Source: Pocillopora verrucosa
Taxonomy: Eukaryota > Cnidaria > Anthozoa > Scleractinia > Pocilloporidae
Reading direction: 5' to 3'
Length of the DNA: 64,000 nt
Assembly: GCF_036669915.1 (NCBI RefSeq)
Contig: NC_089312.1
Location: 14,923,890 to 14,987,889 of the forward strand
The first letter of the stretch is position 1. Each line of letters begins with the position of its first letter. Made by a program: the position numbers and the translations under genes. A model generated the notes under the pieces. The model ran no database searches. It saw only the letters and a list, made by a program, of their open reading frames with translations, and was not told the DNA's origin. Below are positions 12,847 through 57,700 of the stretch, one piece after another.

Positions 12847-15684
12847 TCAGCTGGGATTTAGCCTATAAACTGTGCATGAAAACTTTCTTGAACAGAACTG
12901 GTAGTCCTTGATGATATGAACTATTGTGTCTTTTTCCATCATGATCGAATGATCAGCATCTTCTACCCAGTTACTGACAGTTGTTTCTTGAATAAGCAAT
13001 CCAGTTTGATTATCATAGAGTCCTATAACTCCACAGGGTGTATCACTTGATGCATTTGTAGAGAGAACAACCAGAACATCCAGTTCATCTTCATAATCCA
13101 CGTCTAAAATTGTTTCAAAGCCAGGATTGTTGAAAACTTGATCTGTCCTGGCTTTAATTTCCCGACCAGAAGAAGTGAACTTGGGTCCTTCACTTGCACT
13201 TTCCTCCTTTTTTAGATCAAGCACAAAACAGTGTCTGAGTTCAAATCCTGGTGTCATGGGCTCTGTTTGACACAGTTTCAAACACCTGTGACATATAATA
13301 ATAAAAACAATTACTTTATTGATTTACTTGCAATAGTTGGACAGGCTGGCCCGTTTCAGCTTAAAGCTGATTTGAATGTGGGCCTGTATAAATGATAACA
13401 AGGCCAGACAATTACATCTGGAGCTATATTCCTTATTCTTTGTGAGACATGTGTGGGTACAGTACATTACAGAGAATATGCAATAGACAGGGCCTACCAT
13501 TAATTGTCCACATTCAAGAAGACTAAAATGTCTAACCATTTGGGAATGTCATAGCAAAGGCAGCACATTCTCCTCAGTTGATTTAACCCTTTTACTCCCA
13601 GAAGTGATCAACATGAAACTTCTCCCTATAATATCCTTACATTATCCAGCAAACAGTTAATGAGAATATTCAAACTTATCTGGTAGAATTTGTTATTGTG
13701 ATCTAACATTAAATTCTCATGACTAATTTACAAGGAAATGTGTGGCAGGGAGAGAGGAGAATTAACAATCATATCTTGGGAGTTAAAGAGTTAAGACCTG
13801 AGTGTTAGTTCGGCCTGGGGCTTGAACCCTTTATCTCCTGCATAGCAGTCTAGCACTATACAACATGGGTTGACCATTTGAAACAAGTTTCCAAGTTTTC
13901 AACATAAAAAAAAATAAAAATGTTATGCTTGTAACTGTTTACACCCGACCATCAGCATGACTGTTCTCTACACTGTTCTATGCATTTCCTATAGTAGTGA
14001 TGGAGGAAGTTTCTTCAACAATCAAAAGTCAAAAGCATCTTCAGTTGGTGATCATTTCTTATATTCTCATGACTTCAGATGTTTGATTCACCCGTTACAT
14101 TTGGTGAGAAAATAAGATGCTAGTCTGTGACTCTCAGGAGTTGGGAAGGAGGTTAGTTCATAGGGTAGCAATAAGCAATTGTCCCCAGCCCCCTTTTTAA
14201 TCCCAATTATTACCCCTTTCAATGCCATGAGGATTAATCAGAAACTTTTGCCATCAAAGAGAAATCTATAAGTTGAAAGAGAAACCTTGGACTCACCATC
14301 CAGAAAATTTGAGACTAAAGAGCACTTATAATAGTAAAAGGGGTAAGTTTGTAAAGAAACTGTGGTGCTGCATCAGTGGGAGAGTATAACAGGGTAATTT
14401 AGTATATCAACCAAGTTGATAGTGTAAATTGGCCACTGTAAAGAGTTTAAAAGCTGATGCTTTGAGTGCTAGCCCTTTGTCAGAGCAATTAGCCTTCCCT
14501 CTAACATTTGGAGAATATCCATATTGATGTTAGGGTGTTAAGGGTAAACAAGGTTGCCAGGCCCTCTCCTCTTACCTTATTTCATGGGAACCGATGTGAA
14601 GAATACGTCCACTGTTATCAGCATGAAAGTATGCCTGGTCCGGTTCAACTGATAAAATATTCATTTCCAATATTCCTCTCTTTGCAAGTTTCAAATCTCT
14701 CACTGAACAAACATGAAATGCACTGCTGTGAGGCTGAGGGCAAGAAATGTAATGCCATGGATATCCTCCAAATGAGATGACATGCTGATTGCTAGAAATC
14801 TCAAACAAGACCACAGGCTTTGAACTAAATGATACATTTACAGGGAGCCCATCTGGATAACTTCCAACGATAGATGATCCTTCTGATGACTTAATACTTT
14901 GACCCAGTTTTGTAACGAAACTGTAGTTCTCTATGACTTCTAGCATACTGTAAAATTTAATTCTGTTTGAATGATGCATAATCACCAAAAATCCATTACT
15001 TGCAGCTGCATCAACAATATCCTGACCGAAGATAGATTTTTCAACAGGCACGAGAGCCTGGAACTCTAAAGGAGCCATGGAGAAAATTGATAAAAACATT
15101 AAAGGTCTGCTCTGTGAGAGGACATGGACTGATTTTAGCACAACTCGCTGCAAATCAGACTCCCAAAGTAGATGTTTGAATCTGTAGTTTTTTGACAAAT
15201 AAACTTTCTGTAAAACATCTCCGGTTTTTAAATCATGACGGACTAACCAGCCGTCTGCAGTAACTGCTAGCAAGCAAGGTTTATAACCCTGATATTTAGT
15301 GCAGTTCAGATACGAGTGCTGATCAACAGGGCTTTCAAAGACAAGCGCAGATTCGATCTTCTTAGAAGTGTCACAAGCGTCAAGTTTGTAAAGCAACTCC
15401 GGTTTTCCTTCTGAACCAAACGTGGTGTAGCACGTCCTGAATTTGTCGAAAAACAAATGTTGACTGTCGAATCCAACAGGATGCTTAGTATTATTTCTCC
15501 AGACTTCAATAAATTTAGAGCCTTCTTTCTGTACCATAGATCGAATAATTTTGAGATCTCTTCGAACGGAGGATCCATGCACGTGTAAAGATCTACGAAG
15601 AACTTGATAACATATGTTGTTTCTCTTCGCGTTTTTACGACCAAAAGGTAGGTTCTGATAAACACCAAATGACGCATCCATCAT
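12847..15684 (-). CDS. DCAF17: DDB1- and CUL4-associated factor 17
   Basis: Coding exons are 15684-14576 and 13285-12847, joined by a gtaaga donor and a cacag acceptor; the joined frame is 515 residues, close to the human length of about 520. The N-terminal exon holds the family's WD40-like/beta-propeller-type segments, e.g. TADGWLVRHDLKTGDVL (near residue 135), and the conserved stretch IGGHPWHYI-type seen here as SFGGYPWHYIS. The second exon carries VDYEDELDVLVVLS and the C-terminal FSCTVYRL. By family, DCAF17 is a nucleolar/ER-linked substrate receptor of the CUL4-DDB1 ubiquitin ligase; human mutations cause Woodhouse-Sakati syndrome. The start MMDASFGVYQ is the first Met of the open frame. 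It faces SNRPG head-to-head. An intron of 1,290 bases separates the exons and contains a TTAA element. Confidence 0.93.
13587..13790. mobile_element. TTAA-type MITE with intact target duplication
   Basis: The element lies between TTAA at 13583-13586 and TTAA at 13791-13794. Its ends are ccctttta-ctccc on the left and gggagttaaagag on the right, an imperfect inverted pair. It is about 204 bases long with no coding frame. TTAA duplications are typical of piggyBac-type transposition. It sits in the DCAF17 intron. Confidence 0.85.
13798..13865 (-). repeat. tRNA-derived SINE fragment
   Basis: On the minus strand the stretch reads like the second half of a tRNA-type head, with a B-box-like gggttcaagcccc and a preceding gctagactgctatgcaggag. 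No complete tRNA cloverleaf is present. Confidence 0.4.
14335..14490. mobile_element. Copy of ttggccactgtaaagag repeat family
   Basis: The stretch contains gtgctgcatcagtgggag, then tcaaccaagttgata, taaattggccactgtaaagag and gccctttgtcagagcaa in the order seen in the copies at 17.5, 20.2, 29.1, 31.8 and 32.6 kb. It is one arm only. Confidence 0.7.
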
Positions 15685-15901
15685 GAACCATTAATAAACT
15701 GAAGGACAAACCAACAATTGGTAAAAAGTACAGCCTGATTTGAAAACTGCGAACGGTTGCTTTCGGAGCAATGACATGAAGCAGGCGCTGCGACGTACAA
15801 TTACCGCAACACGTTGAGCCTGTCGGCTCAAGAACGTCTGTGAACGTTTTTGAACTAGAAACAACACACTCAGCGCGTAGCTGAAATCGCTTGAATCAGC
15901 C
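15685..15901. promoter_or_regulatory. Short bidirectional promoter, DCAF17/SNRPG
   Basis: The two start codons point away from each other with 217 bases between them. No other gene fits in this space, so both transcripts must start within it or very near. I see no clear TATA box; the stretch is of mixed composition with a few CpG (gcgctgcgacgtacaattaccgcaacacg region). Confidence 0.65.
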
Positions 15902-48293: not shown

Positions 48294-50208
48294 ATGGAAA
48301 AATTCGTTTGGCTGCTGTGGAATGTGGCAATTCCCTTGTTAATCCTTTTTAGAGGTAAGATTGCTGAAAACTGTCTCGCTCAGTAGAAGTACTGTGTTAA
48401 ATACATTAGGATCTTTTTTCAGTCGTTTAAGAGATGCAAAAGGAATCCAGCCAGCAGTTATAAATTACCAGCTAAGTAGCTCTATGAGTCAAGATAGTCA
48501 GCTAGACAAAAATGTCTCACGTCGATGATAGAATTTTCTGTAAATAATAAGAAAAATAATTAAGGTCGGGCGGGTCGAGCTCACGACTAGACCCATTGTG
48601 TCAAGAGAAAGGTTCGAATCAAATCGAAATGATAAATTTGGTAAGATGATTTTTTTTACCTTGACTGAGCTAAAATTAGGTCTACCTGATGACTATAATT
48701 ATGTGTCGTGGTCTAATGCCAGACTACTAAATTCAGAGGTTAGCTGTGAAAATATTCTCACCAAATTAGTTTCCGGCCTTGTTCTTTAAGTCGCTCAGCT
48801 GAGATCGCCATGTTGAATCCTCGCACAAGTGAGCTGCACGTCACAAGCGATGAAATCCTTGCTCTATACTTGCGATAAAAACAATACTTAATTTTTTTGT
48901 CTAGGACGCTAAGTGTCTGATAAATATACTTTTTAAAGAGAAAACCGATTAAAATTTCACACAAACTATCTGTCTTAGATACATACCTAGCAGAGTCTAA
49001 CATGATAACAAAAATTCAGGGATAGAAACGCATGGAAACCACGGGTTTCGTAAGTAAAAAACAGACGAGAAAAATTTTAACTTGCGTGTCAGTTAATCTA
49101 TTTTTTATTCAATCATAGACAAAAAGCCAAGGGGCTTTGTTTTCTCGAGTCTTCGGTGAGACAGAAACAATATTACGCAATTACCGACTACTTAAGTTAA
49201 AAATGTCTATTTACTTATCGTATGGGACTTAAAACAATCGTGACTTGTCCGTGGAGCTTATGATGCAAATTAATGGCCACTTGACAATAGCTCATTCATA
49301 TGTTCTTCACGGTAATTATAATAAGACCACTTGTAAAAGAACCCGGAACGTTCCCTCTAAATCTAGGACGACCAAACTTATTCATGATTAGAGAGAAAGA
49401 AAAAGATTGTCATTTTTGCAGATTATGTAACGATTTTGTTTGATTTCATTATGAAAACCGATCTACCAATTTACGCTGTCCTTGTTTATAGGAGTCACCG
49501 CCTTTGGCGGAGATGGTTCGTTGGTTTCTCATTCTCATTCTACCGGCTCCACTGAACCCAAAAGTGGACAGCTTGGAATATCGAGTCGACTGCCATCCAC
49601 TACATCGATGTACCTTGAATCGACCACGATGGTGATTCGTACCAGTGGTACAGAAAAACCCACCAGTCCAACACCCAGTAAAATGTGGAGAGCAAAGCTT
49701 ACAATCATAAACATGGAATTTACTGAGGGATTAACCGATCCTTCTTCGGAAGAGTTTGCGAAATTAGCAAATGATTTAGAAGACGTATTGGACAATATTT
49801 TTAAAGAAGTATCTGGTTTTCTTTCCGTGAAAGTTGTTAACTTTACGAAAGGAAGCATCGTATGTAATTACCTTATTCACACGAACTTGGAATCTACAGC
49901 AACATCGGATGAATTTAATAAAATCTTGTCAGAAAAGAGAGGAAAAATCGGAAAGTTTGAGATAGAGACATCTTCATCGTCATTTTCATCCTCGTCTTCG
50001 CATTTCTCCTCCTCGTCATCATCATTGTTGTCAATGTCCTCGTCGCCGTCTATTCCCCCGTCGTCGCCATCTTCCTCCTCCTCCTCATCATCATCATCAA
50101 TGTCACCATCTCCATCATCGATGATATCGATTTCCGCTTGGTCATCTTCCTCGTCATCATCATCGTTGTCAGTGTCCTCGTCGCTGTCTATTCCCCCCTC
50201 GTCGCCGT

Positions 50209-50239
<31 letters not shown>

Positions 50240-50358
50240 ATCATCATCAATGTCACCATCTCCATCATCGATGATATCGATTTCCGCTTGGTCATCTTCC
50301 TCGTCATCATCATCGTTGTCAGTGTCCTCGTCGCTGTCTATTCCCCCCTCGTCGCCGT

Positions 50359-50389
<31 letters not shown>

Positions 50390-52316
50390 ATCATCATCAT
50401 CAATGTCACCATCTCCATCATCGGTGATATCGATTTCTGCTTGGTCATCTTCCTCGTCATCATCATCGTTGTCAATGTCCTCGTCGCTGGCTATTCCCCC
50501 GTCGTCGCCATCTTCCTCCTCCTCCTCCTCATTATCATCATCATCGATGTTACCATCTCCATCATCGGTGATATCGATTTCTGCTTGGTCATCTTCCTCG
50601 TCATCATCATCGTTGTCAATGTCCTCGTCGCTGGCTTTTCCCCCGTCGTCGCCATCTTCCTCCTCCTCCTCCTCCTCATCATCATCATCATCGATGTTAC
50701 CATCTCCATCATCGATGATATCGATTTCTGCTTGGTCATCCTCCTCGTCATCATCATCGTTGTCAATGTCCTCGTCGCTGTCTATTCCCCTGTCGTCGCC
50801 ATCTTCCTCCTCCTCCTCATCATCATCATCATTATCATCGTCAATGTCACCATCTCCATCATCGGTGATATCGATTTCTGCTTGGTCGTCTTCCTCGTCA
50901 TCATCATCGTCGTCGCCATCTTCCTCCTCCTCATCATCATTATCATCAATGTCACCATCTCCATCATCGGTGATATCGATTTCTGCTTGGTCATCTTCTT
51001 CGTCATCATCATCGTTGTCAATGTCCTCGTCGCTGTCTATTCCCCTGTCGTCGCCATCTTCCTCCTCCTCCTCATCATCATCATCATTATCATCGTCAAT
51101 GTCACCATCTCCATCATCGGTGATATCGATTTCTGCTTGGTCGTCTTCCTCGTCATCATCATCGTTGTCAATGTCCTCGTCGCTGTCTGTTCCCCTGTCG
51201 TCGTCATCTTCCTCCTCCTCCTCCTCATCATCATCATCATCAATGTCGCCATCTCCATCATCGATGATATCGATATCTGTTCGGTCATCATCGTTGCCCC
51301 TCTCATTCCTACAACGTCTTCCCTCATCAACACCATCCCCATCATCCTCGGCAGCACCGTCAAAGAAGTTTGTATCATCTCCTTCATTATCGTCAACTAC
51401 ATCGATGTACCTTGAATCGACCACGACGGTGATTCGTACCAGTGGTACAGAAAAACCTATCAGTCCAACACTCAGTAAAGTGTGGAGAGCAAAGCTTACA
51501 ATCATAAACATGGAATTTACTGAGGGATTAACCGATCCTTCTTCGGAAGAGTTTGCGAAATTAGCAAGTGATTTAGAAGACGCGTTGGACAATATTTTCA
51601 AAGAAGTATCTGGTTTTCTTTTCGTAAAAGTTGTTAACTTTACGAAAGGAAGCATCGTATGTAATTACCTTATTCACACGAAATTGGAATCTTCAGCAAC
51701 GTCGGATGAGTTTAATAAAATCTTGTCAGAAAAGAGAGGAAAAATCGGAAAGTTTGAGATGGAGACAGAGGAAGAAGAAGAAGAAGAAGATGGCGTCGCG
51801 GCTGTTAAAGGGACACAGCCACGAAAGAACGAGTTTCCTTTAAAAGTGTTCGCTGCCGCAGCGTTTGGGGGTTTGGTAGTTATGGTCATTGGCTTCGTAC
51901 TATACAAGGTTAGTATTTACAAATGCTTCGTTGACCGTTAGATTCGCAGGGTGGGAGATGAGGCAAGAGAGTTATAACGAATTAGAATATACTGAAGTAG
52001 TGAATGCGTTGAAGGCGCGCTCTGACTGGCTATACTCAAACTCCGAATATCCTTTGCTATTCACCTCCGAGCGAAGCGCGGGATTTGCGCCCGAAAATAT
52101 TGTACTTGTTGCAGGAATATGTAAGTTATAATCATCTTCGTGTGATATAATCTCACTGTTTTAGTTTGTACTAAAACAAATATTCACCTCAGTGTCCGTG
52201 GCTAGCGATGGATTTCTATCCGGCTGCTTGACGGCTCGGTAAATATCCACAACTTAACTTTGGTTAATAGTTCTTAAGTAAATCAAGTCTTGTTTGAAAA
52301 TTATTTTTTTTTCTGT

Positions 52317-52355
<39 letters not shown>

Positions 52356-52909
52356 AGAGAGGGGGGGGAGAGAGGGGGAGAGAGATGTAATTTTTAGTTG
52401 GTGCATCTCAACGCCAAACAAATTTTGATTAAGGACGGACAAGTTACCTCAGACGGAAACGATCCAACTATGTATATGATGCAGCTTTGTCGCTTTCTTC
52501 CTAAATCTTACGTGAGCGTTGCAAGTATAGAATTTTTTCATAATCGGATCTATGAAGTCTATAAACATTAATATAGGACAGACAGAGAACGGTCTTTATT
52601 TTAGAGAGGGGTACTTTGGCTATGTAGCGATAAAATTATGGAGAAGAACATGTTATTGAATGCAAATTTCTTCCATTCTTCTTAAATTACCAGAAAATCA
52701 GCCAAAAAAGAAGAGAACGTGAGGGCTTTAAAAATACAAAGGATATATTTGCGTTGAACGACTTCAATTCACCAAATGATAATGAGGAGGAAGAAAGAGA
52801 GCTTGCCTCACAGAAAATGCGAATCAGTGTCTACGAAGACAAAGAGGAAGATGAGGACGAAATAACACCATTTTGCAAACCTGGCGTCAAGAGAATGAGT
52901 ACTATGTGA
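48294..52909 (+). CDS. SEA-domain, serine-rich mucin-like membrane protein
   Basis: Three exons: 48294-48354, 49492-51908 and 52694-52909; all junctions are in frame and the product is 897 residues. Exon 1 encodes a signal peptide (MEKFVWLLWNVAIPLLILF). Exon 2 encodes a first SEA domain (about residues 85-180, WRAKLTIINMEFTEG to KGSIVCNYLIH), a serine-rich stalk of about 475 residues, a second SEA domain (about 685-780) almost identical to the first, a run of seven glutamates, and a membrane helix (AAFGGLVVMVIGFVLY). Exon 3 is an acidic cytoplasmic tail ending KPGVKRMSTM. In each SEA the G-S-I-V motif lies where mucin-type SEA domains self-cleave, as known for MUC1-like proteins; cleavage here is inference. 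The stalk would be dense with O-glycans. The layout suggests a cell-surface mucin or adhesion receptor. No orthologue is recognised. Confidence 0.85.
49968..51330 (+). repeat. Roughly 150-bp tandem array coding the Ser stalk
   Basis: The landmark gatatcgat recurs at about 50123, 50273, 50426, 50570, 50717, 50870, 50975, 51122 and 51268, so nine units of mostly 144-153 bases, one about 105. Each holds tcctcc, tcatcatca and tcgtcg runs that vary in number. The array stays in the SEA-protein frame. Plus-strand units read as Ser with ISAWSS, MSPSPSS and SIPPSSP islands. Confidence 0.95.
52321..52385. repeat. (GA)n with poly-G interruptions
   Basis: A purine-only run of ga dinucleotides broken by three runs of g. 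It is in the last intron of the SEA-protein gene. Confidence 0.95.
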
Positions 52910-56104: not shown

Positions 56105-57490
56105 TCAGTTTAATCCAAAGAAGTCAGTTGACTGTGGGTTGATGTAGGGGCGTATAGGAGAATGAATTCCACCCCAGTGATCCATCTCATGTGAACGCTG
56201 ATTGTAGATCACAAGTTGCTTCGAATCCAAATCAAGGTAAAACAAGAACAAATCCCCGCACTGCCAGTTGCTGATTGTGCTGACAATTGCTGAGGAATTT
56301 GGGTAGTACTTCATACCATTACTCCAGCGCCAAGTACGATGACCATCAGTGACACCCACTTCAAAGACATGGTGGTCAGAAGATCTTTTGAGCTTGTCAG
56401 GTGTAAGAATTCGCACTTGCCAGGAATGGCAACCTCGTTTGAACCAATACCCTGTCAAGGACTCCTTGTCCTGGTCATATACTTCTGGCGGGAGAGTAGC
56501 ACATGTTGAATCAAGAATGTAGAATGAAGATTCCACCTTCCACTTGACTGGTTCATTGGTGATGCAATGCCCGGTCACATACACGTGTATAGTGTGGGTT
56601 CCCATCACACTAGGGTGGTAAGAGAAGGTGTGGTGTTCAGCTTTACTCCCCATGATGGCATTTTGTAACTCACCATCTCCTGGTGGTTTTATGTTCACCT
56701 TCACCTGGTTTACTCCAACTTTGCAGTTCCTTCCTTGGCTGTCCTTGACAGAAACAATGAAGTAGGCATTCTGATGACATCTGGAAGAAAACATCTGTCC
56801 ATTCTTTCCTCCGAGCATGCTGAGAACATACCGATCATGCTGTTGACTATCTTCATCCCTAACACAAGCCATCTTGTCAACGATGAGGTCAACCATCAAG
56901 GATTTATTCACATCTATGTAGAAATTACTGGTGCGACATGGCTCCCCTTGCAAAGCAACTTCTTTGAAATCAGGTAGACCAGACAATTTGCTCCTGCTGG
57001 TTAGCAACTCCAAGTCAGACATTTGACACAGTGCATGTTCAGTGCATTCTACCTTATTATGGATTTCCTCAAAAGCAAGACTCATTGTCTTCTCTTGATT
57101 TAGAAGCTGTTGGACTTTCTCATCATGCAACACAGCAATATCTCTTTTCAACTGTGCTCGTTTACGTTCCAAGGCTGCTATATTTTCATCAATAAGATGA
57201 TCAACCTCCCTTTCTGACTCCAAAGCCCTCACCTCTACTTGCTTCTTCACTTCTGACACCAAGAGAATTGATCTTTGAAGACCAGATAATTTCTGCTTTG
57301 CATCTTCAAGGCCTTGTTGGATTGCTTCCCTTTCCTTAGCACTTGCATTTTGAATGGACATGTACTTATGGTTTCTGTGACCTTCCCTAACAACACAGTT
57401 TCTACAGACTACATCATTACAGGTTTGACACAAGAACTTGGCAAGCTCTGCAGGATGGTCCTTACAAGAAGGCTCACTTCCTGAAGCCAT
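56105..57490 (-). CDS. RING-less TRIM-like protein: B-box, coiled coil, filamin, SPRY-like
   Basis: A single coding exon of 461 residues, starting MASGSEPS. The B-box lies at residues 9-49 with the expected ligands (CKDHPAELAKFLCQTC, then CRNC, then HRNH). A coiled coil follows to about 165, rich in E, K, Q and L. Residues about 188-320 match a filamin-type Ig repeat as in TRIM45/TRIM2-type proteins (VSVKDSQGR, HHTFSYHPSVMGTHTIHVYV). The last 130 residues look SPRY-like (HSWQVRI, HVFEVGVTDGHRTWRW, LFLFYLDLDSKQLVIYN). There is no RING finger before the B-box, so ubiquitin ligase activity is not expected on its own; binding or scaffold roles are inferred. A cag acceptor near 57586 and a gtaagt donor near 59532 on the same strand suggest a spliced 5' UTR. 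Confidence 0.88.
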   Translation of the reverse strand: MASGSEPSCKDHPAELAKFLCQTCNDVVCRNCVVREGHRNHKYMSIQNASAKEREAIQQGLEDAKQKLSGLQRSILLVSEVKKQVEVRALESEREVDHLIDENIAALERKRAQLKRDIAVLHDEKVQQLLNQEKTMSLAFEEIHNKVECTEHALCQMSDLELLTSRSKLSGLPDFKEVALQGEPCRTSNFYIDVNKSLMVDLIVDKMACVRDEDSQQHDRYVLSMLGGKNGQMFSSRCHQNAYFIVSVKDSQGRNCKVGVNQVKVNIKPPGDGELQNAIMGSKAEHHTFSYHPSVMGTHTIHVYVTGHCITNEPVKWKVESSFYILDSTCATLPPEVYDQDKESLTGYWFKRGCHSWQVRILTPDKLKRSSDHHVFEVGVTDGHRTWRWSNGMKYYPNSSAIVSTISNWQCGDLFLFYLDLDSKQLVIYNQRSHEMDHWGGIHSPIRPYINPQSTDFFGLN

Positions 57491-57700
57491 ATGGTTACCC
57501 TCTTGTAACAGGTTATTGTTTTTATGGGAGTATTAAGTCCTCTCAAATTTACCAGTCAGTGATTTGTTTTAGTACCAATACCTGCCAAGACAAAACAAAA
57601 TAAAATATATTGGTTACTAGTAAATTTCTGGCACACGCACAGCTCCAAATAAAGGTCTTAGAAAAAATCTACTTAGCATGTGATTACAATTTTACCTCTC

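Follow-up and report, generated by a model that had tools for sequence, protein, structure and literature searches.

A predicted SEA mucin-like membrane protein gene and the reading frames left open by the serine codons of its stalk array

One repeat array of about 150-bp units can be read through in two frames on the plus strand and one on the minus strand, which raises the question of which frame belongs to a gene and why the others are open at all. The array lies within a 64-kb window (C1:14923890-14987889), which is the whole stretch of DNA that was analysed, and comparisons were made with the genome that contains it (353,415,432 bases searched, 52 contigs). Judged from its sequence, the locus is very probably a three-exon gene for a type I membrane-tethered SEA mucin-like protein, and of all the frames over the array the serine frame alone joins a gene model. 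Among the papers listed in a literature search, none was recognised as describing this locus.

Results

The spliced three-exon model (48294-52909, plus strand) gave a predicted protein of 897 amino acids. Exon 1 (48294..48354) is open, with a start codon followed by a signal-peptide-like hydrophobic stretch (MEKFVWLLWNVAIPLLILF; Kyte-Doolittle peak 1.91), and its donor, GAG|GTAAGA, scored 10.0. Exon 2 (49492..51908) is a single uninterrupted frame that carries a linker, SEA 1, the Ser stalk, SEA 2, an acidic tract and the transmembrane segment, and splice sites fit both of its ends (acceptor 9.8, donor 8.4). Exon 3 (52694..52909; acceptor 6.5) contributes the cytoplasmic tail and the stop codon, and its frame completes the gene model. 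All splice-site scores are on a simple consensus scale. The order of elements in the predicted protein is a hydrophobic N-terminus, SEA 1, the stalk, SEA 2, the acidic tract EEEEEEED (51768..51795, plus strand, directly after SEA 2), a transmembrane-like segment and a charged tail. Hydropathy peaked at residues 1-25 (signal-like) and 801-829 (transmembrane-like); the signal peptide and transmembrane calls are made from these hydropathy peaks. By hydropathy and Pfam the model thus has the layout of a membrane-tethered mucin, with signal peptide, SEA, transmembrane segment and cytoplasmic tail. A scan of IMG/VR with the SEA-to-transmembrane protein returned 600 pattern matches and no relative among them.

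Neither Rfam (0 matches) nor ARAGORN (0 genes) returned anything within the 64-kb window. Elsewhere in the window, a 475-aa open frame (56105-57532, minus strand) with a B-box zinc finger and a filamin repeat by Pfam was TRIM-like, and two frames at 12847-15690 (minus strand) matched consecutive parts of DCAF17. A 72-bp tandem repeat of 2.9 copies was located at 1927-2132, and the first 4 kb had a GC content of 46-51%, above most of the window.

Both SEA domains passed the Pfam PF01390 cut-off of 26.4 bits, SEA 1 with 55.1 bits and SEA 2 with 50.5 bits. They occupy the two copies of a 375-bp direct duplication (SEA copy 1 at 49596..49970, SEA copy 2 at 51393..51767, both on the plus strand), which differ at 17 of 375 bases with no gaps (95.5% identical) and border directly on the two ends of the array. 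Eleven of the 17 changes were nonsynonymous compared to 11.9 expected (P = 0.40), and three methods gave dN of 0.035-0.039 and dS of 0.067-0.092. These counts do not demonstrate purifying selection on SEA, and they speak for selection in neither direction. The cleavage motif G|S(V/I)V is present in both copies as GSIVC, at protein positions 141 and 740, with its loop position taken from sequence only. In an alignment it falls opposite GSIVA of ADGRF1, whose solved 57-residue fragment 8hc0_B has the G of the motif as its last residue. According to an excerpt of PMC6954182, a GSVVV or GSIVA motif leads to autoproteolytic cleavage.

The Ser-rich stalk array (49971..51392, plus strand) consists of eight full units with flanking partial and degenerate stretches. 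When split at a common anchor the units measured 150, 153, 144, 147, 150, 105, 150 and 144 bp, each length divisible by three; together they span 50123 to 51265, with the partial unit before and the degenerate stretch after. TRF reported a 150-bp period with 5.7 copies and 93% match at 50073-50914, and overlapping rows reached 51289. Serine accounted for 312 of the 473 codons at 49971-51389, every one spelled TCN and none AGY, and proline for 46 of 473, so that the Ser/Pro stalk of about 474 residues is 66% Ser, 10% Pro and 0% Thr. A PTS region is defined, in an excerpt of PMC9080433, by more than 40% Ser plus Thr and about 5% Pro, and the stalk reaches this composition threshold through Ser alone. 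An earlier sequence-only reading had proposed that the roughly 150-bp array between the two SEA domains, read in the spliced plus frame, encodes a stalk rich in Ser, and Pfam, the splice sites and the unit split all agree with it.

Several units were nearly identical. Outside a low-complexity tract, units 1 and 2 differed at 1 of 113 positions, units 3 and 4 at 2 of 113 and units 5 and 7 at 2 of 113; the remaining pairs among the seven full units showed 6-10 differences per 113, and pairs with the short unit 6 showed 4-6 per 77. At a larger scale, a 248-base block of the array had 7 differences from the block 255 bases on. The near-identical pairs show that units were turned over by duplication in the past; they do not prove that the array is polymorphic today. 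Given this turnover it is plausible that individuals differ in their number of units, one assembly having been examined.

The same stretch could alternatively be an intron or an assembly artefact instead of a coding stalk. The plus strand is pyrimidine-rich, and an acceptor near the end of the array (51355) scored 6.0, nearly as much as the exon 3 acceptor (6.5). Of the donors listed in 49900-51392, however, the best reached 3.0, whereas the two exon donors scored 10.0 and 8.4, and the Ser frame runs without a stop through the array and links both SEA copies. Direct repeats can be created by assemblies, and the 95.5% identical repeat at the locus has this shape; however, searching its own assembly yielded no further copy of the locus. 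We therefore consider an intron or artefact quite unlikely and retain the coding stalk.

Two further frames run over the stalk. A V/I/L-rich frame of 425 codons lies at 50138..51415 on the plus strand and an Asp/Glu-rich frame of 592 codons at 49877..51655 on the minus strand; both had been pointed out before as a hydrophobic and an acidic frame, and their coordinates and lengths hold, with stop-to-stop lengths of 484 aa and 595 aa, respectively. Neither is thought to be a gene. Over 49971-51389 the plus strand contained 0 stops in the Ser frame, 9 in the second plus frame and 0 in the V/I/L frame, and the three minus frames contained 127, 0 (Asp/Glu) and 6.

By enumeration, a TCN repeat reads TCN, CNT and NTC on the plus strand and NGA, GAN and ANG on the minus strand. 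Since Ser is spelled TCN here, the NTC frame reads I/L/V/F and the antisense GAN frame reads D/E, and in a pure TCN array a stop is possible in one of the six frames only, NGA, where it arises from TCA. In 500 of 500 random pure TCN arrays of 474 codons, five of the six frames contained no stop, whereas in 500 base shuffles of the array no frame was ever open (0 of 500 for each of the six). In 2000 trials in which the order of the array's 473 codons was randomised, the V/I/L frame came through without a stop in 70% and the Asp/Glu frame in 71%. When the protein was kept and Ser was redrawn from TCN only, the values were 69% and 63% (2000 trials); when codons for the same protein were drawn evenly from all synonyms including AGY, they were 0% and 56% (2000 trials). 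The AGY-allowed control closed the V/I/L frame, and the hydrophobic shadow therefore depends on TCN-only spelling.

Repeating a unit that has no stop and a length divisible by three introduces none, so a single unit is effectively what is tested. Both shadow frames stayed free of stops in 5000 of 5000 trials with consensus units that were codon-shuffled and repeated nine times, and every such array had between three and five open frames. One unit explains the openness, and the 425 and 592 codons are thus not independent evidence. The openness of the frames exceeds base-shuffle chance, yet its cause is the Ser codons. The V/I/L and Asp/Glu frames are shadows of Ser spelling and are ordinary; the view that three readable frames would be unusual was not borne out, being predicted by the TCN-only codons.

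Substitutions were counted in eight of the ten array segments, with the partial first and the degenerate last left out. Among 29 unit changes, 16 were synonymous in the Ser frame compared to 9.1 expected (P = 0.008, uncorrected for six frames), 10 in the Asp/Glu frame compared to 7.4 (P = 0.18) and 6 in the V/I/L frame compared to 9.0. Part of the Ser-frame excess inside the low-complexity tract may come from slippage between TCC and TCA runs and not from substitution. For the 19 changes outside the tract the synonymous counts were 10 in the Ser frame (6.0 expected, P = 0.044), 9 in the Asp/Glu frame (5.5 expected, P = 0.07) and 3 in the V/I/L frame (6.1 expected). The Ser and Asp/Glu frames are inseparable outside the tract because the wobble base is common to both.

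These counts bear on the idea of a true gene for an acidic protein on the minus strand, of which the Ser frame would partly be the mirror image. The 9 of 19 synonymous changes would fit such a gene, as would 592 codons open from an ATG and the differences between the SEA copies, of which 7 of 17 are synonymous in the minus frame with the fewest stops (2) and 6 of 17 in the Ser frame. However, the ATG lies inside antisense SEA 2 and the frame ends inside antisense SEA 1, and its openness is expected in any case. Neither shadow frame passed a Pfam cut-off (the best for the Asp/Glu frame was NhaB, E 0.072, 12.4 bits compared to 27), and the unit proteins of both shadow frames matched their own genome at no site other than this array (all 8 matches in each case). 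An acidic gene is accordingly very improbable. Ribosomal or genomic frameshifts that convert the stalk into a membrane-like segment, a hydrophobic V/I/L form, would agree with the tendency of frameshifted short tandem repeats to gain hydrophobicity (excerpt of PMC12871928) and with the I/V/A-rich proteins that single-base losses in the DSPP repeat produce in human disease (excerpt of PMC2803795), but such a form is hardly credible, as all eight units are multiples of three (though triplet slippage alone also gives that), synonymous changes in the V/I/L frame are fewer than expected, and this frame stops 23 bases into the SEA 2 segment, so that SEA 2, the transmembrane segment and the tail would be lost. 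The antisense acidic gene, the frameshifted membrane form and the array as intron were all rejected, and the Ser stalk between two SEA copies is the reading that we retain.

A search of the same genome with PF01390 gave 17 matches, all above the cut-off, and besides the frame in the window four long frames of 1966, 1179, 717 and 685 codons carry at least one SEA match. Eight of the 17 matches lie within about 300 kb (G000 C8:9611966-9911862), which looks like a SEA gene cluster. The 1966-codon frame (L023 2197-8094, on G000 C8) contains 33% Ser and 15% Thr, SEA domains and a hydrophobic segment after SEA, and its repeats are 99 bp long with 14.1 copies in one array; by its look it would be a second and larger tandem-repeat membrane mucin. 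It spells Ser both as TCN (445 codons) and as AGY (198 codons), and the longest of its shadow frames runs to 174 codons; such short shadows with mixed Ser codons are the expected contrast to the TCN-only array. This paralogue is Ser/Thr-rich whereas the stalk array has no Thr, a difference that counts against the mucin-like reading of the locus. The 1179-, 717- and 685-codon frames were far poorer in Ser/Thr (Ser 9-12%).

The same frame triad is found with roles reversed in L025, an unrelated acidic open frame, where an antisense Ser-rich frame is open for 138 codons and an I/L/V frame for 140 codons. At the DNA level the array unit had 25 matches in its own genome, of which the 16 outside the array were 69-100% identical over 30 to about 120 bases; these look like low complexity and were rejected as evidence. 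Four of the 16 were inspected: L025, L027 and L028 contain Asp-rich open frames of 195 aa, 260 aa and 631 aa, respectively, and L026 contains Ser-, Ile- and His-rich frames and no clear gene.

The first 28 bases after SEA copy 2 (51768-51795), which form the acidic tract, match the inverted array at 23 of 28 positions and share a GATGGCG end; in direct orientation the acidic tract and the array have 6 matching bases only. With the GA tract fixed and the remainder shuffled, 1.1% of 2000 trials reached 23 of 28 (P = 0.011), a post hoc value that is optimistic because the idea was formed after looking. It is a doubtful but conceivable origin that a GAR-rich acidic tract was copied inverted between the SEA copies and then amplified into the Ser stalk, Glu/Asp codons becoming Ser codons on the other strand. 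If true, an acidic linker would have been converted into a serine mucin stalk in a single step.

Discussion

Long open frames over TCN/GAN triplet arrays are to be expected on both strands, and caution is needed that such frames are not counted as overlapping genes without transcripts. As a SEA-stalk-SEA membrane protein, the locus offers a compact example of a membrane mucin whose stalk has grown by unit duplication. We propose that growth would combine slippage of TCN triplets with duplication of 150-bp units. If the gene is expressed, the stalk would probably be O-glycosylated and would keep SEA 1 at a distance from the membrane. Each SEA domain may be cut at G|SIVC, with the halves remaining associated until force or another trigger acts, and their separation would shed the outer part. 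The result would be a surface stalk with two putative break points, one per end.

The SEA domain of ADGRF1 (PDB 7wxu, 8hc0) resembles those described here in having GSIV(A/C) at the equivalent place. In contrast to ADGRF1, the gene model at this locus is without a GPCR part.

MUC1 and MUC16 are the model of membrane-tethered SEA mucin architecture. As far as the excerpted descriptions go, mucins of this type share with the predicted protein a signal peptide, a low-complexity S/P-rich region, SEA, a transmembrane segment and a cytoplasmic tail. In the sea anemone Actinia tenebrosa, mucin1-like proteins have a signal peptide, PTS-rich regions, SEA and a transmembrane domain, and PTS domains are described as highly variable tandem repeats (both from an excerpt of PMC9080433). 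The locus differs from the membrane-tethered SEA mucins in that two near-identical SEA copies flank the stalk, and in that the stalk is Ser/Pro-rich without Thr.

DSPP has, to our knowledge, neither SEA nor a transmembrane stalk. Within the excerpted part of PMC2803795, its dentin phosphoprotein is, like the array, a Ser-rich triplet repeat that lengthens through slippage and unequal exchange; the repeat changes length by slippage, and in DSPP as in the array a single-base loss gives a hydrophobic reading, which in DSPP is I/V/A-rich. The proteins are unrelated, and the DSPP repeat derives from AGC AGC GAC (Ser-Ser-Asp) whereas the array is built of TCN (same excerpt of PMC2803795). Across 50 proteomes, frameshifts in tandem repeats, short ones especially, raise hydrophobicity and arginine content, and longer repeats become less hydrophobic on frameshift, as stated in an excerpt of PMC12871928. 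As far as these excerpts go, the stalk and its hydrophobic shadow both have precedents.
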